From assembly GCA_022508785.1 (NCBI GenBank), contig JAFLUN010000005.1, forward strand, positions 1 to 32,523: a DNA stretch of 32,523 nucleotides. Direction: 5' to 3'. The position numbers were made by a program, and so were the translations under genes. The notes below the pieces were generated by a model. The model saw nothing but the letters and a program-made list of their open reading frames with translations, made no database searches and was not told the DNA's origin. Positions 4,504 through 21,561 of the stretch are shown here, piece by piece. The stretch is from Oscillospiraceae bacterium. Lineage in GTDB: Bacteria > Bacillota > Clostridia > Oscillospirales > Acutalibacteraceae. The stretch's first letter is position 1. Each line of letters starts with the position of its first letter.

Positions 4504-7323
4504 TTATAACATTTTTTTAAGATACATTCCCGTGTAGGATTTTTTGCACTTTGCAACTTTTTCGGGTGTGCCTTGCGTAACGATTGTTCCGCCGCGGTCG
4601 CCGCCCTCAGGGCCTAAGTCAATAATGTGGTCGGCAGATTTGATAACATCAAGATTGTGTTCAATAACGATTACCGTGTTACCTGAATCAACAAGTCGCT
4701 GTAAAACGTCAATCAGCCTGTGAACATCCGCTGTGTGAAGCCCCGTTGTAGGCTCGTCAAGAATATAAACGGTTTTTCCCGTTGAACGCTTTGAAAGCTC
4801 TGTTGACAGTTTTACTCTTTGGGCTTCACCGCCTGAAAGAGTTGTTGCCGACTGACCGAGTTTAATATAACCAAGACCTACCTCGGCAATTGTTTTTAAT
4901 TTTTCACGGATTCTCGGCTGATTATCAAAGAAAATCAACGCTTCGTCAACGGTCATTTCAAGTACTTCGGATATGTCTTTACCTTTGTACTTAACCTCAA
5001 GAGTTTCTCGGTTGTACCTTGCGCCTTTGCAGACATCACAAGGAACATAAACGTCCGCCAAAAAGTGCATCTCAATTTTTTTAATACCGTCGCCCTGGCA
5101 GGCTTCACACCGTCCGCCTTTTACGTTAAAGGAATAACGGCTTGCAGTGTAACCTCTTATTTTTGAATCCTGCGTAGCGGCAAAAAGATTTCTTATATCG
5201 GTAAACACGCCCGTGTAAGTTGCAGGGTTAGAACGAGGAGTTCTGCCTATGGGAGACTGGTCAATATTTATTACTTTGTCTGTGTATTCCGTTCCCAAAA
5301 TTTGCTTAAATTTGCCGAGCGGCTTTTTTGCGCCGTTTAATTCGTTTGCAAGGCTCTTATAAAGAATTTCATTGATTAAAGAGGACTTACCCGAGCCTGA
5401 AACACCCGTAACGCAAGTGAATGTTCCGAGAGGAATATCCACGTCAATATTTTTTAAATTGTTCTCTTTAGCACCTATTATTTTAAGGAAGTTTCCGTTC
5501 CCCTTTCGTCTGACCTTTGGAACGGGAATTTTTTTAGTTCCCGAAAGATATTGACCCGTTATTGAATCTTTGCAGTTCATAATATCCTCGGCTGTGCCTG
5601 CGCAAATAACTTCGCCGCCGTGTACTCCCGCACCGGGGCCAATGTCAACAATGAAATCTGCCTCTCGCATGGTATCTTCATCATGCTCAACAACAATAAG
5701 AGTGTTACCCAAATCTCTCAAATGCTTTAATGTTCCCAAAAGCTTGTCGTTATCTCTTTGATGAAGCCCTATGCTCGGCTCATCAAGGATATAAAGAACG
5801 CCCATAAGGGAAGAACCGATTTGAGTTGCCAAACGGATTCTTTGGCTTTCACCGCCAGAAAGTGTACCTGAAGAGCGGGAAAGGGTTAAATACTCAAGAC
5901 CCACGCTTTGAAGGAATTTAAGTCTTGAAATTATTTCTTTGATTATTGATTCGCCGATAAATTGATCTCTGTCGGAAAGATTAAGATTTTCTATATATTC
6001 AATAGCTTTAGTGACAGAAAGCTCGCAAAATTCACTGATATTTTTCTTGCCCACCGTTACTGAAAGGACTTCGGGTTTAAGCCTTGTGCCTTTGCAGGCA
6101 GGGCATTCGCAGGTTGTCATTACCTGCTCAATTTCCCAGCGAGCCCAATCGCTTTTTGCTTCTCTGTAACGGCGCTCCATATTGTTTACGAGGCCTTCAA
6201 AACTATTGCTGTAAACACCTGTTCCGTAGAGTGTGGGGCGCTTCATATCAAGCTTTTCCTCTGTTCCGTAAAGCAAAGCGTTAATTCCCTCATCGGATAT
6301 ATCCTTCAGCGGAGTGTCAAGGGTAAAACCGTACTTTTTACCGAGGGCTTTATAATACATTTCGGCAATCGTGCCTGAATCCGCTTTACTCCAACCGCTG
6401 GCACAAATACCGCCGTTGGAAATTGAAAGATTTTTATTTGGCATAATAAGGTCAGGACTTACTTTAAGAAAAACGCCGAGACCAGCGCATTTTTCACACG
6501 CACCGAAAGGATTGTTAAAGGAAAACATTCTCGGTGACAACTCATCAATGCTTATTCCGTGCTCAGGGCAGGCATAATTTAACGAAAATAATTGCTCTTT
6601 CTCGCCCACAATATCAATTAAAACATTACCGCCTGATTCTTTTGTTGCAGTTTCAATTGAATCTGCAAGACGGGACCTTATATCTTCTTTTAAAACTAAC
6701 CTATCAACGATTATTTCAATATTATGTTTATTTTGCTTTTTAAGCTTAATGTCATCTGAAAGGTCATAAAGCTCACCGTCAATTCTCGCTCTTACAAATC
6801 CTTCCTTTTTGGCGTGCTCAAGCTCTTTAACATGCTCGCCTTTTTTGGCACGCACAATGGGTGCGAGAACTTGAATTTTCGTTCCTTCCGGATATTCAAA
6901 AACAGTGTCAACAATTTGGTCAACGGTTTGCTGCTTTATTTCTCTTCCGCAAACGGGACAGTGCGGCACACCGATCCGAGCATAAAGGAGCCTTAAATAA
7001 TCATAAATTTCCGTTACTGTTCCAACAGTTGAGCGAGGATTCTTTGATGTTGTTTTCTGGTCAATGGAAATTGCAGGCGAAAGTCCGTCAATTGACTCAA
7101 CATTCGGCTTGTCCATTTGCCCTAAGAACATTCTCGCATAGGAAGAAAGGGATTCAATATATCTCCTCTGCCCCTCTGCGTAAATTGTGTCAAAGGCAAG
7201 GGACGACTTGCCTGAGCCCGAAAGCCCCGTAAAAACGACAAGCTTGTCCCTCGGTATTTCAATATCAATATTTTTAAGGTTATTTTCTTTTGCACCTTTA
7301 ATTATAATTTTATCGTTGTACAT
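4504..7323 (-). CDS. uvrA: Excinuclease ABC subunit A
   Basis: 939 aa; two ABC ATPase modules ([38 protein letters not shown]), LSGGE signatures, zinc-finger CxxC pairs. Confidence 0.98.
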
Positions 7324-7329
7324 TTTCTA

Positions 7330-9279
7330 TTATTTCCCTGATTTCAATTTTTCAATTTTATCTCTTAAATATGCCGCGTGCTCAAATTCAAGAATCTTAG
7401 CGGCCGCTTTCATCTCTTCAGTAAGAACAGCAATCAGCTTCTGCTTTTCTTCCCGTGACATACGCTTGCCGGTTTTATCCTTCTTAGATATTTCAAGGAT
7501 ATCGCGAACATCTTTCTTAATAGTTTTCGGCACTATTCCGTTCGCTTCATTAAAGGCTATCTGCTTTTCTCTGCGTCGGTAGGTTTCGGAAATTGCCCGT
7601 TCCATTGAAGGAGTAACTGAATCTGCATACATTATTACTTTGCCGTTTTCATTTCGCGCCGCACGGCCGATAATCTGAATAAGAGATGTTTCCGAGCGCA
7701 AAAATCCCTCTTTGTCAGCATCAAGAATTGCGATAAGGGACACTTCGGGAATATCAAGACCTTCACGAAGAAGGTTAATGCCCACCAACACATCAAACTC
7801 GCCTAAACGCAAATCACGGATAAGCTCCATACGCTCAATGGTATCAATATCGTAATGCATATATTTTACTTTTATTCCGTGCTGTGAAAGATAGTCAGTT
7901 AGGTTTTCAGCCATTTTTTTGGTAAGAGTTGTCACAAGAACACGCTCTTGCTTTTCAGTTCTTAAGTTTATTTCAGATATCAAATCGTCAATTTGACCGT
8001 CAGTAGCGCGCACCTCAATTTCAGGATCAAGAAGTCCCGTAGGTCTTATTACCTGCTCTGAAGTGCAAACGCTTTTTTCAGTTTCAAAAGGTCCGGGCGT
8101 TGCGCTTACGAATATTTTTTGACCGACTTTAGAATAAAATTCGTCAAATGTTAAAGGTCTGTTATCGTAAGCAGAAGGCAGACGAAAGCCAAAATTTATA
8201 AGACTGTCTTTTCTTGAACGGTCACCGCCGTACATTCCTCTTACCTGCGGCAAAGTAACATGCGATTCGTCAACAAAAAGCAAAAAGTCCTTTGGAAAGT
8301 AATCAATAAGTGTAAAGGGTGGTTCGCCCGGTTTTCTGCCGGACATTACGGCGGAATAATTTTCAACCCCCTTGCAAAAGCCTGTTTCACGAAGCATTTC
8401 CATGTCATACTCAGTACGCTGACGAATCCGCTGTGCCTCAATAAGCTTGCCCTGCTTTTCAAATTCGGCAACAGAGCGCTCCATTTCTTCCGATATTTGT
8501 AACAGCGACCTTTCAAGCTTATCGGGCGAAATTACATAGTGTGAAGCAGGATAAACGGCAATGTGCGAGACAGTATTTTTAACAGAACCCGTAATCGGAT
8601 TTACCTCACAAATTCTGTCAACCTCATCGCCGAAAAACTCAACACGCACTGCCGTATCGCTTGAATATACGGGGAATATTTCGATAATATCCCCTTTTAC
8701 TCTGAATTTATTTCGAATAAAATTTATGTCGTTTCGCTCATATTGCATTGTTACAAGTTTTTTTATAACGTCGTCACGGCTGATTTCCATACCCGTTCTG
8801 AGTGACAGAACCATTTTTCTGTAATCAATCGGGTCGCCGAGAGAGTAAATGCAGGAAACGGAGGCTACAATGATTACATCTCGTCGCTCAGACAGAGCAG
8901 AGGTGGCTGAATGGCGAAGCTTATCAATCTCATCGTTAATGGAAGAGTCTTTTTCAATATAAGTGTCGGTTGTGGCAATATAAGCCTCAGGCTGATAATA
9001 GTCGTAATAAGAAACAAAGTATTCAACTGCATTTTCGGGAAAAAACTCTCGGAACTCAGAACAGAGCTGTGCCGCCAAGGTTTTATTGTGCGCCAAGACT
9101 AACGTCGGTCGGTTAACTCGTTCGATAATATTTGCCATTGTAAAGGTTTTACCGCTTCCCGTTACACCTAAAAGCACCTGCTCCATAGCCCCGTTGTTAA
9201 CACCTTGAACCAGTTTATCAATGGCAGACGGCTGATCACCCATCGGCTTAAATTTTGAATGTAAAATAAACTTATCCAA
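7330..9279 (-). CDS. uvrB: Excinuclease ABC subunit B
   Basis: [35 protein letters not shown]-terminal UVR motif; probable TTG start at 9279 ([10 protein letters not shown]) preceded by AAAGGCGGTG, shorter than the ORF track. Confidence 0.97.
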
Positions 9280-9297
9280 GGGAACACCGCCTTTCAA

Positions 9298-9311
9298 TAA
9301 ACATTTGTTCG
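9298..9311 (-). promoter_or_regulatory. Putative LexA (SOS) box upstream of uvrB
   Basis: Minus strand CGAACAAATGTTTA, close to the Firmicute LexA consensus CGAACnnnnGTTCG, just downstream of the -10. Confidence 0.7.
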
Positions 9312-9322
9312 ATAATATTGAT

Positions 9323-9351
9323 ATTATACAACAAAGATAATAAAAAAACAA
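9323..9351 (-). promoter_or_regulatory. Putative sigma-A promoter of uvrBA (TTGTTT-N17-TATAAT)
   Basis: Minus strand -35 TTGTTT (9346-9351), 17-nt spacer, -10 TATAAT (9323-9328). Confidence 0.65.
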
Positions 9352-9410: not shown

Positions 9411-12400
9411 TTATTTAAAGTACTTAACAGCAGCTTCAAACATCTTTATGTCATAATTGCCGGGAACATTCTTATAAAGACCTGCTCCCACACGCTCGCT
9501 GTGACCCATTTTACCGAATACTCTGCCGTCAGGTGACGTAATACCTTCAATAGCGTACATTGAATCGTTGGGATTAAACTGAATGTCGTTGGTAGCATTT
9601 CCGTTAAGGTCAACGTACTGTGTAGCAATTTGACCGTTTGCGGCAAGCTTCTTTATAAGCTCTTCGGAAGCTAAAAATCTGCCTTCGCCGTGCGAAATCG
9701 GAACTGAATACACATCCCCTACGTTAGTAAGTGACAACCACGGAGACTTGTTAGATGCAATTCTTGTTCTTACGATTTTTGACTGGTGGCGTGCAATAGT
9801 GTTAAATGTAAGCGTAGGACAGCTTTCATCGGTATCAATAATTTTACCGTAAGGCACAAGTCCCAGCTTAATGAGCGCCTGGAAGCCGTTACAGATACCG
9901 CACATAAGTCCGTCTCTGTTTTCAAGCAAATCGGTAACTCCGTCTTTAATTGCGGCGTTACGGAAGAATGCAGTAATAAACTTACCGCTGCCGTCAGGCT
10001 CGTCGCCGCCTGAGAAACCGCCCGGAATAAAAATCATCTGTGCCGTTTTAAGCTTATTTGCAAACTCCTCAACACTTGACTGAATTGCAGATGATGTGAG
10101 GTTTTTAATGACGATTATTTCAGGCTCTGCCCCTGCATCACGAACAGCCTTTGCGCTGTCATATTCGCAGTTTGTACCCGGGAACGCAGGAATAAGAACT
10201 TTAGGCTTTGCACACTTAATTGAAGGTGCAGGGTAACTCTCTGCTTTATAATTAAAGTTTTCAACCGTTGCAGCATTTTCGGTTATATTACAGGAATATA
10301 CACCTTCAAGCTTATTTTCGTAAAGATCGGAAATCTCTGCCATTTGTACTGTTTCATCAGCAAAAGTAAGAGCTGTTGCTTCTGTGATTTCACCGATTAC
10401 ATCGAGTTCTTCAGCATCGCTTACTTCGAGTAAGAACGAAGCGTAATTGTAACCGAAAACATCGTCAACAGAAAACTTATCATTAAATTTGAAGCCGAAG
10501 CCGTTTCCGAGACACATCTTCATTACAGCCTCTGCAATACCGCCAAGACCGGGTGTATAGCAGGAAACTGCATTACCGCTCTTTATAAGAGTGCTTACCT
10601 TTTCAAAAACGCCTAAAAGAGAATTTGTGTCGGGAAGACCGTCAGAATTATATTCTGGCTTAATTATAACAACCTTATTCCCTGCCTTTTTAAATTCGGG
10701 AGAAATAATATCGGTTGTCTTTTCGGTGGTAACTGCAAAGGAAACGAGCGTGGGCGGAACATCTAAATCTTCAAAGGAACCGCTCATTGAATCCTTACCG
10801 CCGATTGAGCCGATTTGCAACTCTTTTTGAGCCTCAAAAGCACCAAGAAGCGCCGCAAGAGGCTTACCCCAACGCTTACCGTCCTGACCGGGCTTTTCAA
10901 AATATTCCTGGAAGGTAAGATAAACATCCTCAAACTTTGCACCCGTTGCTATAAGCTTACAAACCGATTCAATAACCGCAAGATATGCGCCGTGATACGG
11001 ACTTTTTTCCATTATAAACGGGTTATATCCCCAAGACATAAGCGAACAGTCGTCAGTATGCTTTTCTTCGACGCTAATCTTTTGCACCATAGCCTGAATG
11101 GGCGTTCTTTGGTTTTTACCGCCGAATGGCATAAGAACCGTTCCTGCGCCGATAGTGGAGTCAAAACGCTCAGAAAGCCCTCTCTTTGAGCAAATATTAA
11201 GGTCTTCTGCCATAGCCTTAATATTATCTGTAAAGCTTCCGCTTACCTTTTTATTAAAGTCCTGAGGCTTTTGGGGAGTTATTACAATATGCTTATCCGC
11301 ACCGTTGGAATTAAGGAAATCTCTGCTGATATCAACAATTTTCTTGCCGTTCCAATTCATTGTAAGACGAGGATCTGCCTTGACAACTGCAACAGGAGTA
11401 GCCTCAAGATTTTCTTTTTCGGCAAGTGCCAAAAATGCATCTACATTTTCTTTTTCAACAACAACTGCCATTCTTTCCTGGGATTCGGAAATTGCAAGCT
11501 CTGTACCGTCAAGCCCGTCGTATTTCTTCGGTACTGCATTAAGGTCGATTTCAAGACCGTCGGCAAGTTCACCGATAGCAACAGAAACGCCGCCTGCACC
11601 GAAATCGTTACAACGCTTGATCATAAGGCAGGCTTCTTTATTTCTAAACAGTCTCTGCAATTTTCTCTCTTCGGGGGCATTACCCTTTTGAACCTCTGCG
11701 CCGCAGGTTTCAACAGAATGTGCATTATGCGCCTTTGACGAACCCGTAGCACCGCCGATGCCGTCTCTGCCCGTTCTTCCACCTAAAAGAATTACAACAT
11801 CACCAGGAGCAGGAACTTCTCTTCGTACATTTTCCTGAGGTGCGGCGGCAATTACAGCGCCTATCTCCATTCTTTTAGCGGCATAACCCGGGTGATAGAT
11901 TTCATCAACTATGCCTGTTGCAAGACCTATCTGATTGCCGTATGACGAATAACCTGCTGCAGCGGTAGTAACAAGCTTTCTCTGGGGAAGCTTACCGGGA
12001 ATGGTCTCACTTACTGGAACTGTCGGGTCTGCCGCACCCGTAACACGCATTGCGCCGTAAACATAGCTTCTGCCTGAAAGCGGGTCACGGATTGCGCCGC
12101 CTATGCAGGTAGCCGCACCGCCGAATGGCTCAATTTCAGTTGGGTGGTTGTGAGTTTCATTTTTAAACAAAAGCAACCACGGTTCTTTTACGCCGTCTGC
12201 TTCAATTTCAATTTTAACTGTGCAAGCGTTGATTTCTTCAGATTCATCAAGCTTAGGAAGTTTTCCGTTTACTTTAAGATATTTAACGGCAACGGTAGCC
12301 AAATCCATAAGGCAAATGGGCTTAGTTCTGCCAAGCTCTTTGCGAACCGAAATATAATCCTCATATGCTTTTTGCAAAAGCTCGTCTTCAAATTTTACAT

Positions 12401-13097
12401 CGTCAATAACCGTTAAAAAGGTCGTGTGACGGCAATGGTCAGACCAGTAAGTGTCTATCATACGAATTTCAGTAAGTGTCGGATCTCTGTGCTCTGTTTT
12501 AAAGTAATCCTGACAGAACTTAATGTCGTCTTTATCCATTGCAAGACCGTAATTTTCAACAAACTGAGCAAGCTCTTCCTCAGAATACGAATTAAATCCG
12601 TCAAGAGTTTTAACGGCGGTCGGAATTTCGTAGTTAACTTTGAGAGTATCAAACCTTTCAAGTGAGGCTTCTCTTGCTTCAACAGGGTTGATAACATACT
12701 TTTTGATTTCGGCAACATCGCTGTCATTCAGTTCCCCGTAAAGCGCATAAACCTTTGCAGAACGGATAATAGGTCTGTCGCCCTGGGAAATAATTTGGAT
12801 ACACTGTGCTGCTGAGTCCGCCCTTTGGTCAAACTGACCCGGGAGATATTCAACAGCGAAGACTATCGCATCATCAGTTGCAATTTCGTTTGTTGCAATA
12901 TCAAGCTGAGGCTCGGAAAATACAGTTTTAACCGCATAATCAAAAAGCTCTTCCGTTATATTTTCCGCATCATAACGGTTGAAAATGCGAACATCTTTAA
13001 GGTTTTGTATGCCGAGAAGATTTTTAGCGTCGTTTAATAAAGCCTTTGCTTCATTTGCAAGCTCTTTCTTCTTTTCAACAAAAATTCTGTAAACCAA
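9411..13097 (-). CDS. purL: Phosphoribosylformylglycinamidine synthase, single-chain with fused glutaminase
   Basis: 1228 aa; NETHNHPTEIEPFGGAATC, C-terminal glutaminase with FPGTNCEYDS and CGICNGFQ; TTG start with AAGGAGGAC. Confidence 0.96.
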   Translation of the reverse strand: MVYRIFVEKKKELANEAKALLNDAKNLLGIQNLKDVRIFNRYDAENITEELFDYAVKTVFSEPQLDIATNEIATDDAIVFAVEYLPGQFDQRADSAAQCIQIISQGDRPIIRSAKVYALYGELNDSDVAEIKKYVINPVEAREASLERFDTLKVNYEIPTAVKTLDGFNSYSEEELAQFVENYGLAMDKDDIKFCQDYFKTEHRDPTLTEIRMIDTYWSDHCRHTTFLTVIDDVKFEDELLQKAYEDYISVRKELGRTKPICLMDLATVAVKYLKVNGKLPKLDESEEINACTVKIEIEADGVKEPWLLLFKNETHNHPTEIEPFGGAATCIGGAIRDPLSGRSYVYGAMRVTGAADPTVPVSETIPGKLPQRKLVTTAAAGYSSYGNQIGLATGIVDEIYHPGYAAKRMEIGAVIAAAPQENVRREVPAPGDVVILLGGRTGRDGIGGATGSSKAHNAHSVETCGAEVQKGNAPEERKLQRLFRNKEACLMIKRCNDFGAGGVSVAIGELADGLEIDLNAVPKKYDGLDGTELAISESQERMAVVVEKENVDAFLALAEKENLEATPVAVVKADPRLTMNWNGKKIVDISRDFLNSNGADKHIVITPQKPQDFNKKVSGSFTDNIKAMAEDLNICSKRGLSERFDSTIGAGTVLMPFGGKNQRTPIQAMVQKISVEEKHTDDCSLMSWGYNPFIMEKSPYHGAYLAVIESVCKLIATGAKFEDVYLTFQEYFEKPGQDGKRWGKPLAALLGAFEAQKELQIGSIGGKDSMSGSFEDLDVPPTLVSFAVTTEKTTDIISPEFKKAGNKVVIIKPEYNSDGLPDTNSLLGVFEKVSTLIKSGNAVSCYTPGLGGIAEAVMKMCLGNGFGFKFNDKFSVDDVFGYNYASFLLEVSDAEELDVIGEITEATALTFADETVQMAEISDLYENKLEGVYSCNITENAATVENFNYKAESYPAPSIKCAKPKVLIPAFPGTNCEYDSAKAVRDAGAEPEIIVIKNLTSSAIQSSVEEFANKLKTAQMIFIPGGFSGGDEPDGSGKFITAFFRNAAIKDGVTDLLENRDGLMCGICNGFQALIKLGLVPYGKIIDTDESCPTLTFNTIARHQSKIVRTRIASNKSPWLSLTNVGDVYSVPISHGEGRFLASEELIKKLAANGQIATQYVDLNGNATNDIQFNPNDSMYAIEGITSPDGRVFGKMGHSERVGAGLYKNVPGNYDIKMFEAAVKYFK

Positions 13098-13101
13098 GAC
13101 T

Positions 13102-14370
13102 TTAGTCCTCCTTACAATTTAACGCTTTTTGACCGATATCGTGACGGTAATAAGCATTAGCGAAATGAATTTTGCCAACTGCTTCGTAAGAAGCTTTTAT
13201 TGCAGCTTCAAGTGAATCTTCAATACAAGTTACACCGAGCACCCGTCCGCCGTTTGTTAAAAGTTTGCCGTCTTTGAGAGCTGCGCCTGCAACAAATACA
13301 TTATTTTCAAGGCTTTCGGGAATGGTGATCTCGTAACCCTTTTCATATTTTACGGGGTAGCCTTCAGATGCCATAATAACACAGCATGCGTTTTTATCGG
13401 CAAATTTTACGTCGCAATCGGCTAAAGTTTCATTAGTAACCGCCATCATAACCGTAAGCAAATCGCTTTCTAAAAGTGGTAAAACCACCTGCGTTTCAGG
13501 ATCGCCGAAACGGCAGTTATATTCAATTACTTTAGGACCGTCAGAAGTTATCATAAGACCGAAATAAAGGCATCCTTTAAAGGTTCTGCCCTCCTGCTTC
13601 ATAGCTTTTATTGTAGGCAGGAAAATCTTTTCCATACACTCGTCGGCTACTGCCTTTGTATAATACGGATTAGGAGCGACAGTGCCCATACCGCCGGTAT
13701 TAAGCCCTGTATCGTTATCCCCTGCACGCTTATGGTCCATTGATGAAATCATAGGAACAACAACATTTCCGTCTGTAAAAGATAAAACAGAAACCTCAGG
13801 ACCTGTTAAAAACTCTTCAATAACGATATTGTCACCGCTCTTGCCGAATTGCTTGTCCTTCATAATAGAAACAACGGCATCCTTGGCTTCTTCTCTCGTA
13901 TTCGCAATTATAACGCCCTTGCCGAGTGCCAAGCCGTCAGCCTTAATAACGGTTGGAACGGGACAGCTCTCAACATATTCAAGGGCTTTGTCGGCATCCG
14001 AAAAAACTTCATACTGTGCTGTGGGAATACCGTATTTCTTCATAAGCTCTTTTGAAAAGACCTTACTGCCCTCGATTATAGCCGCATTTTTCCTCGGTCC
14101 GAAGCAATGTATACCCTTTTCTTCAAGCGCATCTACACAACCGAGCACAAGCGGATCATCAGGAGCTACAACAGCGTAATCAATTTTATTTTCAATTGCA
14201 AATTCAACGATTTTCTCAATATCAGTAGCGGCAATATTAACAAGCGTGGCATCCTTTGCCATTCCGCCGTTACCGGGAAGAGCAAAGATTTCAGTTACAT
14301 CTTTATTCTCTTTAATTTTTTTGATTATGGCATGCTCTCTTCCGCCGCCGCCGACAACCATTATTTTCAT
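13102..14370 (-). CDS. purD: Phosphoribosylamine-glycine ligase
   Basis: MKIMVVGGGGREHAI N-terminus, IKADGLALGKGV, YNCRFGDPETQ. Confidence 0.97.
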   Translation of the reverse strand: MKIMVVGGGGREHAIIKKIKENKDVTEIFALPGNGGMAKDATLVNIAATDIEKIVEFAIENKIDYAVVAPDDPLVLGCVDALEEKGIHCFGPRKNAAIIEGSKVFSKELMKKYGIPTAQYEVFSDADKALEYVESCPVPTVIKADGLALGKGVIIANTREEAKDAVVSIMKDKQFGKSGDNIVIEEFLTGPEVSVLSFTDGNVVVPMISSMDHKRAGDNDTGLNTGGMGTVAPNPYYTKAVADECMEKIFLPTIKAMKQEGRTFKGCLYFGLMITSDGPKVIEYNCRFGDPETQVVLPLLESDLLTVMMAVTNETLADCDVKFADKNACCVIMASEGYPVKYEKGYEITIPESLENNVFVAGAALKDGKLLTNGGRVLGVTCIEDSLEAAIKASYEAVGKIHFANAYYRHDIGQKALNCKED

Positions 14371-14389: not shown

Positions 14390-15574
14390 TTAGTGATGGA
14401 ACAATCTCATACCCGTAAATGCCATTGACATATTGTATTTATCGCAACATTCAATAACTGCATCGTCACGGATTGAGCCGCCCGGTTCAGCAATATATTT
14501 TACGCCTGAACGGTACGCTCTTTCAATATTATCTGAGAACGGGAAGAAAGCGTCGGAACCGAGGGCAACGCCGTCTTTTGTAGCAAGATAAGCCGCCTGC
14601 TCCTCTTTTGTAAAGGGTTCGGGTCTTTCTGTAAAATACTTCTGCCAAATTCCATCGGCGCAAACATCTTCTTCGTTTTGATTGATATAGCCGTCAATAA
14701 TATTGTCTCTGTCAGGTCTGCCGATATTCTCTTTGAAAGGAAGGTTGATAACCTTATCTGCCTGACGAAGGAACCAAGTGTCAGCCTTTGTGCCTGCAAG
14801 TCTTGTGCAGTGGATTCTTGACTGCTGACCTGCGCCAACGCCAATAGCCTGACCGTCAACTGCATAGCAAACTGAATTAGACTGTGTATATTTAAGAGTA
14901 ATAAGGGCAACTATAAGGTCACGAATTGCGGTTTCAGGCATATCTTTGTTTGCAGTTACAATATTTGAAAGGAGCTCTTTGTTGATTTCAAAATTATTTC
15001 TGCCCTGCTCAAATGTAATGCCGAAAACCTGCTTACGCTCCTGAGCATCGGGAACATAATTCGGGTCAATTTTAACGATATTATAATTGCCGTTTCTCTT
15101 TGATTTAAGAATTTCAAGTGCCTCAGGCTCATAACCGGGGGCAATAATACCGTCTGAAACCTCTCTCTTTATCATTTTTGCAGTTGTAACATCGCAAACA
15201 TCGGAAAGAGCAACCCAGTCACCGAAAGAACACATTCTGTCTGTGCCTCTTGCACGGGCATATGCACAAGCAAGCGGAGAATCGTCAAGACCTTCTATAT
15301 CGTCAACAAAACAAGCCTTTTTAAGAGTATCGGAAAGCGGAATGCCAACTGCCGCCGACGTGGGGCTTACATGCTTAAATGAGGTAACTGCGGGAAGTCC
15401 GAGAGCCTCTTTGAGTTCCTTTACAAGCTGCCATGAATTAAACGCATCAAGGAAATTTATGTAACCGGGTCTGCCGCAAAGAATTTCAATAGGAAGGTCA
15501 CTGCCGTCGTGCATATATATTTTTGAAGGCTTCTGATTAGGGTTACATCCGTACTTAAGTTCAAATTCTTTCAT
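14390..15574 (-). CDS. Stand-alone AICAR (phosphoribosylaminoimidazolecarboxamide) formyltransferase, ATIC C-terminal-like
   Basis: LKYGCNPNQKP, TSFKHVSPTSAAVGIPL, REVSDGIIAPGYE, KYTQSNSVCYAVDGQAIGVGAGQQSRIHCTRLAG, SDAFFPFSDNIERA, terminal LFHH; no N-terminal IMP cyclohydrolase domain. Confidence 0.92.
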   Translation of the reverse strand: MKEFELKYGCNPNQKPSKIYMHDGSDLPIEILCGRPGYINFLDAFNSWQLVKELKEALGLPAVTSFKHVSPTSAAVGIPLSDTLKKACFVDDIEGLDDSPLACAYARARGTDRMCSFGDWVALSDVCDVTTAKMIKREVSDGIIAPGYEPEALEILKSKRNGNYNIVKIDPNYVPDAQERKQVFGITFEQGRNNFEINKELLSNIVTANKDMPETAIRDLIVALITLKYTQSNSVCYAVDGQAIGVGAGQQSRIHCTRLAGTKADTWFLRQADKVINLPFKENIGRPDRDNIIDGYINQNEEDVCADGIWQKYFTERPEPFTKEEQAAYLATKDGVALGSDAFFPFSDNIERAYRSGVKYIAEPGGSIRDDAVIECCDKYNMSMAFTGMRLFHH

Positions 15575-15591
15575 TTCACTAACCTCAATTC

Positions 15592-16308
15592 TTATTTATT
15601 CTTGTTAACTATTCTTGAGTTGTATTTGCCTGTTTCAATATCAATATATCTTACGAATAATGAAACCTTGTTGTCTTCATTAAGATTTGACCAAATAAGG
15701 TCGGTGAGATCATCAATATCCACATCAGGAAGCTCTAATGTTTTAGGTTCACCCTCAAAGCTCGGAAGCGGATTACCGTCACACTTATATGTATGAATAA
15801 ACTTAGCTTTACCTGCAAGGGGATTTGAATAAGCGTAAGTGTATCTCTGGCATGAGCTGCCGTCGCCGTCTGCTGATTTTAAAATTGACATAGCAAAATT
15901 CATTTCACCGTTCTCACGGTGAATAATTCCTGAAATTCTCGGAGTGTAATTGGGAGCATCGTCTTCAAACTCTCTTGTGCGAAGAGCCTGCTCAAATGTC
16001 ATCTGCTTGTCCATAAGCTCATAAATTGTATCAGTCTGATCGCCGTTTGTAACGATAGTCTTATTACCGAGCACTTTTACGGGTGCATAAATAATAAGAT
16101 GCGGGTCAACCATCTTTGATTCGTCAAAAGCCTGTGTGCGAATACCTTCGCCGTCTTCTACAAAGACACGGTTTCTGCTGTTTTCGCTTCTGCCCATTAT
16201 AAAATAAGCAGTAACAGCCTTCTTACCGTCAGCACTTTTACCGATAATGATTCCCCTGCCGTGATAAGCAAGTGAATTAAGCTCTTCTTTAATAGATTTG
16301 ATTTCCAT
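15592..16308 (-). CDS. purO: IMP cyclohydrolase, PurO type (archaeal-like)
   Basis: YHGRGIIIGKSADGKKAVTAYFIMGRSENSRNRVF N-terminus typical of the PurO family; adjacent to the transformylase that lacks this activity. Confidence 0.85.
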   Translation of the reverse strand: MEIKSIKEELNSLAYHGRGIIIGKSADGKKAVTAYFIMGRSENSRNRVFVEDGEGIRTQAFDESKMVDPHLIIYAPVKVLGNKTIVTNGDQTDTIYELMDKQMTFEQALRTREFEDDAPNYTPRISGIIHRENGEMNFAMSILKSADGDGSSCQRYTYAYSNPLAGKAKFIHTYKCDGNPLPSFEGEPKTLELPDVDIDDLTDLIWSNLNEDNKVSLFVRYIDIETGKYNSRIVNKNK

Positions 16309-16330: not shown

Positions 16331-16942
16331 TTATTTTGAAATGATTTGCTTACATATTTTTTCAGTAGATTCGGGAAGGATTATCCATTCGGCATTTTCC
16401 ATAACCCTTTTTTGAAGGATTTCGGGAGTGTCGCCGTCCTTAACTTCAACTGCCTTTTGCATTATTATCTCTCCGCCGTCGGGTATTTCATTAACAAAAT
16501 GAACGGTTGCGCCCGTTACCTTAACGCCCTTTTTAAGTGCAGCCTCATGCACATGAAGACCGTAAAAGCCTTCACCGCAAAATGACGGAATCAAAGACGG
16601 ATGAACATTTAATATTCTGTTTTCATAATGCGAGGTAAATTTCTTACTCAAAATAGACATAAAGCCTGCAAGAACAATTAAATCAATGCCGTTTTCGTCA
16701 AGAATTTTTATAATTTCGTTTTCAAATGCTTCCTGAGAACCAAGCTGCTTTTTAAGAACGGTAAATGTTTTAATGCCTGCATTTTTTGCACGGGTAAGAG
16801 CAAACGCTCCGTCTTTATTTGAAATGACAAGCTCAATTTTGCCGCTGGAGATGATACCGCTTGCCTGTGCATCAATGAGAGCTTGTAAATTTGTTCCGCC
16901 GCCTGAAACCAGCACGGCTATTTTAGCTTTTTTGCTCGGCAT
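16331..16942 (-). CDS. purN: Phosphoribosylglycinamide formyltransferase
   Basis: IAVLVSGGGTNLQALIDA, ILNVHPSLIPSF, GATVHFVNEIPDGGEII. Confidence 0.97.
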   Translation of the reverse strand: MPSKKAKIAVLVSGGGTNLQALIDAQASGIISSGKIELVISNKDGAFALTRAKNAGIKTFTVLKKQLGSQEAFENEIIKILDENGIDLIVLAGFMSILSKKFTSHYENRILNVHPSLIPSFCGEGFYGLHVHEAALKKGVKVTGATVHFVNEIPDGGEIIMQKAVEVKDGDTPEILQKRVMENAEWIILPESTEKICKQIISK

Positions 16943-17543
16943 CTTTTTTACCTCCTAAAATGGACAGTAACGGGAATAACATTCCGCCTAACGAATTACC
17001 TAAAATAACAATCCAAATAAACACAAAAGCTCTTAGTGAAACCATACCAGAAACGGCAAAATAGAACATATCAGCAACAGAGTGTTCAAAGCCACTCAAT
17101 ATAAAGACGGGTATGCAGAGTATTATTCCCAAAGGCGTTTTATGGTTTTTGAAAATATCGACTGCAAGGAATATGAGTATTCCGCAGAAAAACGCCCTAA
17201 TAAATGTTTGGGGCATTTCCTGCTGGAGTTTTAATGTACAAGCGTTAAAACCTGCCTCGCGAAGCTTCAGTATTGCGTATGCAAGCGCATAACCGCAAGC
17301 TGTTGTTGCTATTACATTGCCCAAAAGCCCTGTAAGCAATACTGAAAATTCTTCTTTTCCGTGTTTTTCAGGTATGTAGCATATCTTTCCCGTATAAAGA
17401 GAATAGCCTTGATAACAAATGCAAACAAGTGCTACCGTAAAAAGCAGTGAGCCTACATATTTATTGTCACACGCAAGGTAAACTGCTCCGCCGATTGAAA
17501 TCAAAATACCTGCAAAAATTCCGTTAATTACTTTTTTTAGCAT
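16923..17543 (-). CDS. Small formate/nitrite transporter (FNT) family channel
   Basis: 206 aa, about six TM segments; SLYTGKICY resembles FNT signature [19 protein letters not shown] resembles FNT GFEHSIANMF with the central His; [11 protein letters not shown] near the C-terminus. Confidence 0.85.
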
Positions 17544-18577
17544 ATTTCTATTTTATTCTCGTATTTGATGATTTCGCCGATAATGTAAGCGTCCTCACCG
17601 TTAGCCCTTAAGATTTCAAGAGCCTTATCGGCGTCTTGTTTACCTACAACTATGCTCATACCAACGCCCATATTAAAGGTGTTGAACATATCTCTTTCAT
17701 CTATGTTGCCTTTTTTTGACAGAAGCTCGAAAATCGGCAAAACCTTTACTGATTTACGGTCGATTTTCGCGCATAAACCGTCGGGAATACTTCTCGGAAT
17801 ATTCTCATAGAATCCGCCGCCAGTGATATGTGAAATACCCTTAACTTTAACCTCAGAAAGAAGAGCGAGAACGGGTTTTACATAAATTTTTGTGGGCGTA
17901 AGAAGAGTTTCGCCAATAGATTTGCCGCCAAGCTCTGCCACGGGAGATTTAATGTCGCTGTTCTCAACGTCAAACACCTTTCTAACAAGAGAAAAACCGT
18001 TTGAATGAACGCCGCTTGAGGGAAGAGCTATGATAACATCGCCCTCAGCCATTGTTTTGTTATCAATAATCTTTGACTTATCAACAACGCCCGTGCAGTA
18101 GCCTGCAAGGTCATATTCGTCAACAGGATAAAATCCGGGCATTTCAGCAGTTTCACCGCCGATAAGCGCAGCGCCTGACTGAACACAGCCGTCACAAACA
18201 CCTTTAACAATATCTGCTATTTTTTCAGGGATATTTTTACCGCAGGCAATATAATCAAGGAAAAAGAGCGGTTTTGCGCCGCAGCAAATAATATCGTTTA
18301 CACACATTGCAACGCAGTCAATACCAACCGTGTCGTGCTTGTCCATTAAAAATGCAAGTTTTAATTTTGTACCTACCCCGTCAGTACCGCTTACAAGCAC
18401 GGGCTTTGTAATTCCCGTAAGGTCAAGCTCAAAAAGACCGCCAAATCCGCCTACATCAGAGCAAACGCCTGAAGTTAAAGTGGTAGCGATATGCTTTTTC
18501 ATAAGCTCAACTGCCTTGTAGCCTGCAGTAATATCAACGCCTGCCGCTGCATAAACATCCGATTTAGAATTGTTCAT
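17537..18577 (-). CDS. purM: Phosphoribosylformylglycinamidine cyclo-ligase
   Basis: [48 protein letters not shown]. Confidence 0.97.
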
Positions 18578-18581
18578 AATC

Positions 18582-20006
18582 TTATTCCTTTCCGTTCCAG
18601 CAATATGTGCAAAGCTCTTCTGGGTCTAAACCTATTGCCTTAATAATCCCCTCAAGGCTTTGAAATTCAAGGGAAGCCAAATGAAGCTTTTCGCAGATGT
18701 TTGCTCTAAGCTTTTTACCTCTTTCGGTAGAAGAATCTGCATACTCGTCAATATAATTAAAGCCGTCTTCACCCTCAAGCTCTACTATAACTCTTCTTGC
18801 AATAAGCTCCATATCGCTCGTTGCTCTTGAGAAATTGAGGTATTTGCATCCGTACATTATAGGCGGACAGGCTGAACGCATATGAACAGATTTTGCACCG
18901 TTTTCGTAAAGGAAATCAACCGTTTCTTTAAGCTGAGTACCTCTGACAATTGAATCGTCAACGAAAAGAAGATTTTTCCCTACTATCAAATCCTTAACGG
19001 GAATCTGCTTCATTTTTGCAATTTTATTTCTCTCAGACTGGTTTGTTGGCATAAAGCTCCTCGCCCAAGTGGGAGTGTATTTAATAAAAGCCCTTGCAAA
19101 AGGTATACCGCTCTGATTTGAATAACCGATTGCGTGAGGTGTGCCTGAATCGGGAACGCCGCCTACATAATCAACGCCTTCGCTGATGCCTGATTTCTTG
19201 TCAGCTTCAGCCATAATTTTACCGTTGTTATAGCGCATCATTTCAACGTTAACGCCTTCGTAGGTAGACGTTGGATAGCCGTAATAGCTCCAAAGAAATG
19301 CGCAGATTTTTTTCTTTTTACCGGGCTCTTTAAGCTGTTTTATTTCATCAGGCGTAATCTCAACAATTTCACCGGGTCCGAGCTCTTTAATAAACTCATA
19401 GCCAAGCTTTTCATAAGCAAAGGATTCAAATGAAACTGCAAAACCGTCCTCGTTTTTACCTATTTGAATGGGCAGTCTGCCGAATTTATCCCTTGCGGCA
19501 ATAATCGAGCCAGTTTGAGTGAGCAAAAGAATTGAAGCAGTTCCGTCAATTACTTTCTGCGCAAATTCAAGACCGCTCAAAAAGTCACCTTTTAAGCTTA
19601 TAAGAGAGGCTACAAGCTCGTTAGAGTTTACCTTACCGCCTGTCATAGCGTCAAAATGACCGCAGTCATTTGTAAGATACTTGTCGATAAGATAATCGGC
19701 GTTGTTTATAATACCTACCGTGCAAATGGCATATGTGCCTATTCTTGAACGGATAAGCAAGGGCTGAGGGTCAGTGTCGCTGATACAGCCTATTGCCGAG
19801 GTACCTTTCATTTCCTCTAAAACATGCTCAAACTTTGTACGAAAGGGAGCGTTTTCTATATTGTGAATTTTCCTCTGTAAGCCGATTTCTTTATCATACG
19901 CCGCAAGTCCGCCCCTGCGAGTGCCAAGGTGCGAATGATAGTCAACGCCGAAGAAAACATCTAACATACAGTCTTTTTTTGAAGCGATTCCGAAAAATCC
20001 TCCCAT
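18582..20006 (-). CDS. purF: Amidophosphoribosyltransferase (PurF) homologue with degenerate glutaminase domain
   Basis: PRPP-binding [14 protein letters not shown] and [22 protein letters not shown] present; N-terminus MGGFFGIAS lacks the catalytic Cys of the CGVFGI motif. Confidence 0.88.
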
Positions 20007-20021
20007 GAATTTTACCTCCGA

Positions 20022-20732
20022 TTATTCGCCGAAAATTCTGTGCATCATTTCTTTGTATGCATCTTCAACTCCGCCTAAATCTCTGCGGAAACGGTCCTTG
20101 TCAAGCTTTTCGTTTGTTTCCGCATCCCAGAAGCGGCAGGTATCGGGTGAAATTTCATCAGCAAGAACGATTGTTCCGTCTGAAGTTTTACCGAACTCAA
20201 GCTTAAAGTCAACAAGCTTAACGCCAAGACCGATAAAGTAATCCTTGAGAACCTCGTTTACCGTAAATGCCATTGACTTGATTGTGTCAATTTCTTCTTT
20301 AGTAGCAAGCCCGAGGGCGAGAGCGTGATAAGAGTTCATAAGCGGATCGTGAAGATCGTCATTTTTATATGAAAACTCAATTGTAGGCTCTGCGAATACT
20401 ATTCCCTCTTCAACGCCGAAGCGCTTTGCAAATGAGCCTGCAGAAATATTTCTTATAATTACTTCAAGAGGAACGATTGAAACCTTTTTAACGACTGTTT
20501 CGTTGTCGTTAAGCTCCTCAACAAAATGAGTTTTAATACCTTTTTTCTCAAGAATCTGCATAAGGTAATTTGACATACGGTTGTTAATAGCACCCTTGCC
20601 TACAATAGTGCCTTTTTTAAGACCGTCAAATGCAGTAGCATCATCCTTGTAAGAAACAATTACCAAATCAGGGTTTTCAGTAGCATATACCTTCTTTGCT
20701 TTTCCTTCGTAAAGTTGAACTGTCTTTTCCAT
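20022..20732 (-). CDS. purC: Phosphoribosylaminoimidazole-succinocarboxamide synthase
   Basis: [32 protein letters not shown]-type motif, [15 protein letters not shown]. Confidence 0.97.
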
Positions 20733-20757: not shown

Positions 20758-21252
20758 TTATTTATTAAATTCAGCGCAGATTTTAGCATCCTTAGCCAAA
20801 ACTGCTTTTTTGTTTTCTTCACGCATTGCTATAAGTTTTTCCGCCAATTTTTCATCGGAAATCGCAAGCATTTGTGCCGCAAGAAGAGCCGCATTTCCGC
20901 CGCCGTTAATGGCTACCGTTGCAACGGGAATACCTGTGGGCATCTGAACAGTTGAAAGAAGAGCATCCATACCGTCAAGAGCAGAAGATTTGCAGGGAAT
21001 GCCTATTACGGGAAGGGTTGTATTTGCGGCAACTGCGCCTGCAAGGTGAGCTGCCATACCTGCTGCGGCAATAATTACTCCGTAGCCGTTTTCCTTAGCA
21101 GATTTTGCAAATGCTGCTGCCTCTTCAGGTGTACGGTGAGCCGAATAAACATGAACCGTATACTCAATTTCAAGAGAATTAAGCATATCTACACACTTTT
21201 GAATAATTGGCAAATCACTGTCACTGCCCATAATAATTCCGACTTTTTTCAT
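20758..21252 (-). CDS. purE: N5-carboxyaminoimidazole ribonucleotide mutase / AIR carboxylase catalytic subunit
   Basis: MKKVGIIMGSDSDLP, SAHRTPE, GMAAHL, QMPTGIPVATVAI; ATG at 21252 preceded by AAGGAGGA, shorter than the ORF track. Confidence 0.96.
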   Translation of the reverse strand: MKKVGIIMGSDSDLPIIQKCVDMLNSLEIEYTVHVYSAHRTPEEAAAFAKSAKENGYGVIIAAAGMAAHLAGAVAANTTLPVIGIPCKSSALDGMDALLSTVQMPTGIPVATVAINGGGNAALLAAQMLAISDEKLAEKLIAMREENKKAVLAKDAKICAEFNK

Positions 21253-21265
21253 AATAATCCTCCTT

Positions 21266-21311
21266 AAAAAAACAAAAAGACACACTTGAACCTTGAAGTA
21301 GGTTAAATGTG
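21266..21311 (-). terminator. Intrinsic terminator (riboswitch expression platform) upstream of purE
   Basis: RNA CACAUUUAACCU-acuuca-AGGUUCAAGUGUG (one bulge, one G-U) followed by UCUUUUUGUUUUUUU, ending just before AAGGAGG. Confidence 0.8.
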
Positions 21312-21383
21312 CCCAGACGGTCGGCTAAAGTAAAAAGTCCTTGCTCCTCTGTGGTGCTCCACATTCTTCCGTCAGTCGCAAAG
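21311..21383 (-). ncRNA. ZTP riboswitch (pfl motif)
   Basis: Minus strand GCGACUGACGGAAGAAUGUGGAGCACCACAGAGGAGCAAGGA...UUUAGCCGACCGUCUGGGCA; matches the pfl core layout (CUGrCGG ... GUGG-CCAC hairpin ... GGAGC ... GCCGnCCGyCUGGGC) with the GACGG/CCGUC pair compensated; located in the 5' leader of purE. Confidence 0.87.
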
Positions 21384-21410
21384 AACCAACCTTTTTTATC
21401 GAAAAAATTA

Positions 21411-21531: not shown

Positions 21532-21561
21532 ATTATACCATAAGATAAAAGAAATAGTCAA
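21532..21561 (-). promoter_or_regulatory. Putative sigma-A promoter of the purine operon (TTGACT-N18-TATAAT)
   Basis: Minus strand -35 TTGACT 21556-21561, 18-nt spacer, -10 TATAAT 21532-21537. Confidence 0.75.

Follow-up and report, generated by a model that had tools for sequence, protein, structure and literature searches.

Does the leader of the purine operon in this genome carry a genuine ligand-responsive switch and, if so, in which direction and over which genes does it act? We addressed this in a 32,523-nucleotide stretch of an Oscillospiraceae bacterium contig (the window), for which a reading of the letters had proposed a ZTP riboswitch with a terminator ahead of purE (the original prediction). 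That prediction assigned the leader to the pfl/ZTP family and named cmscan as the check; the search returned an RF01750 (Rfam ZMP-ZTP) match at 21389–21304 on the minus strand (62.4 bits, E = 5e-8), exceeding the gathering score of 39 bits across the full model (positions 1–86 of 86). It was the sole ZTP match when the host genome (1.73 Mb, 92% complete) was searched with RF01750. The matched RNA comprises P1 (GGUUCUUUGC/GCAAGGACUU), P2 (GUGG/CCAC) and P3 (GCC/GGC), and further features placing it in the family are the pseudoknot between the P1–P2 internal loop and the P3 loop (GACGG/CCGUC) and the purine and formyl-THF synthesis genes downstream (purE to purL). In an alignment of 29 sites from the host bacterial family, we found compensatory changes in 9/9 counted P1 pairs, a P1 covariation score of 0.500 (0.213 when shuffled; ≤0.147 for slid versions), and an intact pseudoknot and P3 throughout. 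Judged from sequence and covariation, the aptamer is a real and correctly named ZTP riboswitch.

The pseudoknot had been described as a compensatory version of the commoner GGCGG/CCGCC, and indeed both strands are altered relative to the Rfam consensus. Since the altered pair is A-U in 28/29 aligned family sites (G-U in 1/29), GACGG/CCGUC is the family norm and no peculiarity of the window. Pseudoknot bases unlike the consensus could also mark a class variant with altered ligand specificity, yet the change is compensatory, occurs in nearly all aligned family sites and stands ahead of several kinds of gene, and the operon itself encodes a ZMP-consuming enzyme; we regard such a variant as extremely improbable. 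Across the family, RF01750 matches over the cut-off were present in 88 of 200 sampled genomes, and purE-headed operons formed the commonest class among the 60 best family ZTP sites. Other sites lead fhs or purO/AICARFT, some lead an ORF read as IMP dehydrogenase followed by an FNT (formate/nitrite transporter) gene and purO, and many lead ORFs of ~743 aa that coincide with PFL-family matches. A ten-gene purine operon under a ZTP switch is thus a common arrangement in the host family, and the riboswitch itself adds a well-formed example to a known class.

Features of the purine operon, its leader and its downstream neighbours in the window.
Feature	Position	Strand	Evidence
ZTP (pfl) riboswitch aptamer, P1-P2-P3 + pseudoknot	21304..21389	-	RF01750 62.4 bits, full model; P1 covariation 9/9 pairs
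Pseudoknot 5' strand GACGG	21369..21373	-	partner strand 21316-21320; cells 100% paired, 29 family sites
Pseudoknot 3' strand CCGUC, in P3 loop	21316..21320	-	RF01750 match and family alignment
GGGC common to P3 3' arm and terminator 5' arm (switch point)	21311..21314	-	overlap conserved in family
Intrinsic terminator: hairpin 21314-21278, U-tract 21278-21266	21266..21314	-	fold -16 to -17 kcal/mol; 1/500 shuffles equal
Shine-Dalgarno AAGGAGG of purE	21259..21265	-	read from sequence
purE	20758..21252	-	PF00731 6.5e-63
purC	20022..20732	-	PF01259 7.4e-92
purF paralog without catalytic Cys (MGGFFG start)	18582..20006	-	TIGR01134 170 bits, cut-off 350
purM	17537..18577	-	PF02769/PF00586; operon position; 71-91% identical in the operons of most relatives
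Compact formate/nitrite transporter (FNT) channel, 206 aa	16923..17543	-	PF01226 7.5e-25; aligns with solved FNT structures
purN	16331..16942	-	TIGR00639 206 bits, above cut-off
purO-like IMP cyclohydrolase	15592..16308	-	PF07826 2.7e-71
Stand-alone AICAR formyltransferase (ZMP-consuming)	14390..15574	-	NF005492 691 bits, above cut-off
purD	13102..14370	-	GARS_A/N/C
purL, single-chain FGAM synthase	9411..13097	-	GATase_5, AIRS_C and FGAR-AT linker domains
uvrB (7330-9351), uvrA (4504-7323)	4504..9351	-	UvrB/UvrA equivalogs; same direction as purL

Immediately 3' of P3, the leader folds as GGGCACAUUUAACCU-ACUUCA-AGGUUCAAGUGUGUCU and runs on into a U-tract (UUUUUGUUUUUUU, last stem U included) and then AAGGAGG; the expectation of a hairpin and U-run running directly from the aptamer to the Shine-Dalgarno was borne out. 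The window terminator had a z of -2.55, and among 500 dinucleotide shuffles of the window tail only one matched the real structure, with its 5' arm starting at the P3 GGGC. As the stem begins with that same GGGC, P3 and the terminator are mutually exclusive. This shared segment likewise fits membership in RF01750; overlap of a terminator with the 3' part of the aptamer is common, though not universal, in the ZTP class. The overlap between aptamer 3' end and terminator 5' arm, also part of the original prediction, extends well beyond this locus: a P3-sharing terminator (-10 kcal/mol or better) was found at 51/60 sites (the window and 59 family relatives) vs 151/1800 shuffles (8%), and such a terminator was also present at 35/40 further sites on named clostridial genome contigs. 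The window stem contains G-U pairs and a bulge, owing to which its terminator may leak.

Because the P3-sharing terminator recurs and the published geometry of the class goes with an ON response, we infer ligand-dependent antitermination, and we put the probability of a standard transcriptional ON switch ahead of purE and the purine operon at roughly 93%. The original prediction had spoken of a ligand-bound/terminated switch; the overlap that it invoked holds, and the direction of control, which it left ambiguous, is read here as ligand preventing termination. Alternatively, the aptamer could bind ZMP/ZTP and act mainly on translation through access to the Shine-Dalgarno, with the hairpin serving as a weak attenuator. 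The Shine-Dalgarno does lie directly 3' of the U-tract, but it is outside the terminator stem, and a U-tract follows the P3-sharing hairpins throughout the family; translational control as the main mode is therefore very unlikely.

In the transcriptional ON switch that we favor, a shortage of 10-formyl-THF would stall AICAR formyltransferase and raise ZMP/ZTP. Binding of ZMP/ZTP by the nascent leader would then lock the GACGG/CCGUC pseudoknot and P3, leaving the downstream strand unable to capture the P3 GGGC, such that no terminator would form and purE to purL would be transcribed. In the ligand-free leader, the terminator stem would nucleate and displace P3, and transcription would end just 5' of the Shine-Dalgarno. 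The AICARFT and PurN supplied by the operon, and probably formate passage through the FNT channel for Fhs, would relieve the shortage.

Domain matches confirm the ten co-directional genes of the original prediction, in the order purE, purC, a purF paralog, purM, an FNT channel gene, purN, purO, AICARFT, purD and purL. The description of a full purine operon holds for this purE-purL extent and fails for the word "full": the canonical purF resides on another contig (C61), the FNT channel is included, and purB, purK, purA and guaB are all absent from the ten operon genes. The purF-like ORF of the operon scores well under the cut-off of the PurF family (TIGR01134, 170 vs 350 bits), and its product starts with MGGFFG, without the N-terminal Cys nucleophile of PurF, whereas the canonical PurF on C61 has ECGVFG and scores 511 bits. 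Of 26 other or related operons, most encode the GGFFG form, as do 38/43 loci from named contigs. Going by its sequence, this Cys-less protein is perhaps an ammonia-dependent or regulatory paralog; a literature search for Cys-less PurF paralogs returned no paper relevant by title.

The FNT channel raises a separate question of how it is tied to the switch. The ORF belongs to the FNT family (PF01226 88.1 bits, cut-off 34.6) and its product aligns, the GFEHS segment included, with FNT proteins of solved structure. Since its FocA score (TIGR04060) is far under the equivalog cut-off (41 bits vs 290), we did not file it as FocA. A genome-contig scan seeded with ten such FNTs yielded 80 loci, chosen for similarity to the window channel, of which 46 had the purM-FNT-purN order and 43 a ZTP aptamer detected by a model built here (with one weak match among the 43, at 26 bits and E = 0.004). 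Rfam confirmed the aptamer in all 8 loci checked. In two of these FNT-selected loci (L136, L152) and in a family locus (L110), the FNT gene lies directly behind a ZTP aptamer.

The window's genome contains fhs and, at 92% completeness, gave no PFL match. Among ZTP-positive family genomes, an FNT was held by 12/15 PFL-negative vs 10/75 PFL-positive genomes (Fisher p = 7e-7, without tree correction), and with one genome per genus by 9/11 vs 7/47 (p = 4.5e-5), a comparison made on incomplete assemblies and with PF02901, which covers other glycyl-radical enzymes besides PFL. This distribution is consistent with a channel that would substitute for PFL by taking up formate for 10-formyl-THF. We consider the odds slightly in favor of a broader reading, in which the ZTP regulon of this clostridial group has a compact FNT of its own, dedicated to formate import for Fhs, and the switch controls one of two alternative formate sources, PFL (making it) or FNT (importing it), the FNT gene standing either directly behind a separate ZTP switch or in the purM-purN interval. 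A full-text literature search for a ZTP riboswitch or purine operon paired with a formate transporter returned nothing; the gene-association list of Kim 2015 lay outside its coverage, so we claim no novelty for the link. A THF riboswitch (RF01831, 85.7 bits; locus L112, 2779–2882, minus strand) was also observed close to an FNT gene in a different genome of the family, which may once more link these channels to control by folate.

The flanks bear on where the transcript begins and ends. Downstream of purL, terminator scans revealed no convincing minus-strand terminator in the purL-uvrB gap and a strong terminator-like hairpin 3' of uvrA (4497–4458), and purine-operon transcription may extend into uvrBA (DNA repair). 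Some relatives, too, have uvrB/uvrA in the vicinity of ZTP sites. On the other side, pyrI is the last of the upstream pyr genes and is followed by a terminator-like hairpin (21750–21715). The best promoter match, TTGACT-18-TATAAT at 21561–21532 (11/12, with TG), has its -10 inside a dispersed palindromic repeat at 21542–21471 (minus strand; core TATAATAACCTCACGAAACAC...GTGTGTTTCGGAGAACATTGTATCAT). The genome holds 14 other matches to this repeat, some partial, and some copies stand in tandem ~95–225 bp apart. Between the promoter match and the aptamer, a long strong hairpin ending in TTTTTT (~21486–21400, minus strand) could be either an upstream terminator or what remains of a repeat, and the leader region 21545–21395 folds with a z of -5.9. 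Since this T-run hairpin intervenes, the start site is uncertain, which leaves the identification of the riboswitch untouched. In a permissive Rfam search of the leader for a second regulatory RNA, all matches were to eukaryotic families or sub-threshold, and were taken as chance.

How does this locus compare with characterized systems? Descriptions of both the mechanism and the gene class go back to Weinberg 2010 (PMC2864571), in which the pfl motif was reported with a terminator overlapping its 3' part and an association with purine and formyl-THF genes, other purine steps included; validation as a ZTP riboswitch came with Kim 2015, as summarized in a later review (PMC7266159). The window RNA is an ordinary example of this class, which it resembles in aptamer sequence and structure, overlapping terminator and purine/formyl-THF genes (PMC2864571), and it differs from the RF01750 class in heading a ten-gene, purE-first operon with an FNT channel and a Cys-less PurF, and from the consensus GGCGG/CCGCC in its GACGG/CCGUC pseudoknot. 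Less expected are the recurrence of a compact FNT within or directly behind ZTP-controlled units and the Cys-less PurF in the same operons, which suggest that uncultured gut clostridia have little-noticed parts of the one-carbon and nitrogen supply to purine synthesis. Among individual RNAs, the Thermosinus carboxydivorans ZMP riboswitch is a transcriptional ON switch whose P3 nucleotides pair downstream as a terminator without ligand (PMC7337938); the window RNA would share its ON logic and has the same P3-sharing terminator, although the T. carboxydivorans RNA was characterized experimentally and the window RNA is known from sequence. In the Clostridium beijerinckii pfl ZTP riboswitch, the terminator forms by strand displacement with an invading strand that carries wobble pairs and bulges (PMC10085676), and wobble pairs and a bulge are also present in the window stem; unlike the C. 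beijerinckii RNA, studied as a pfl leader, the window RNA precedes purE.
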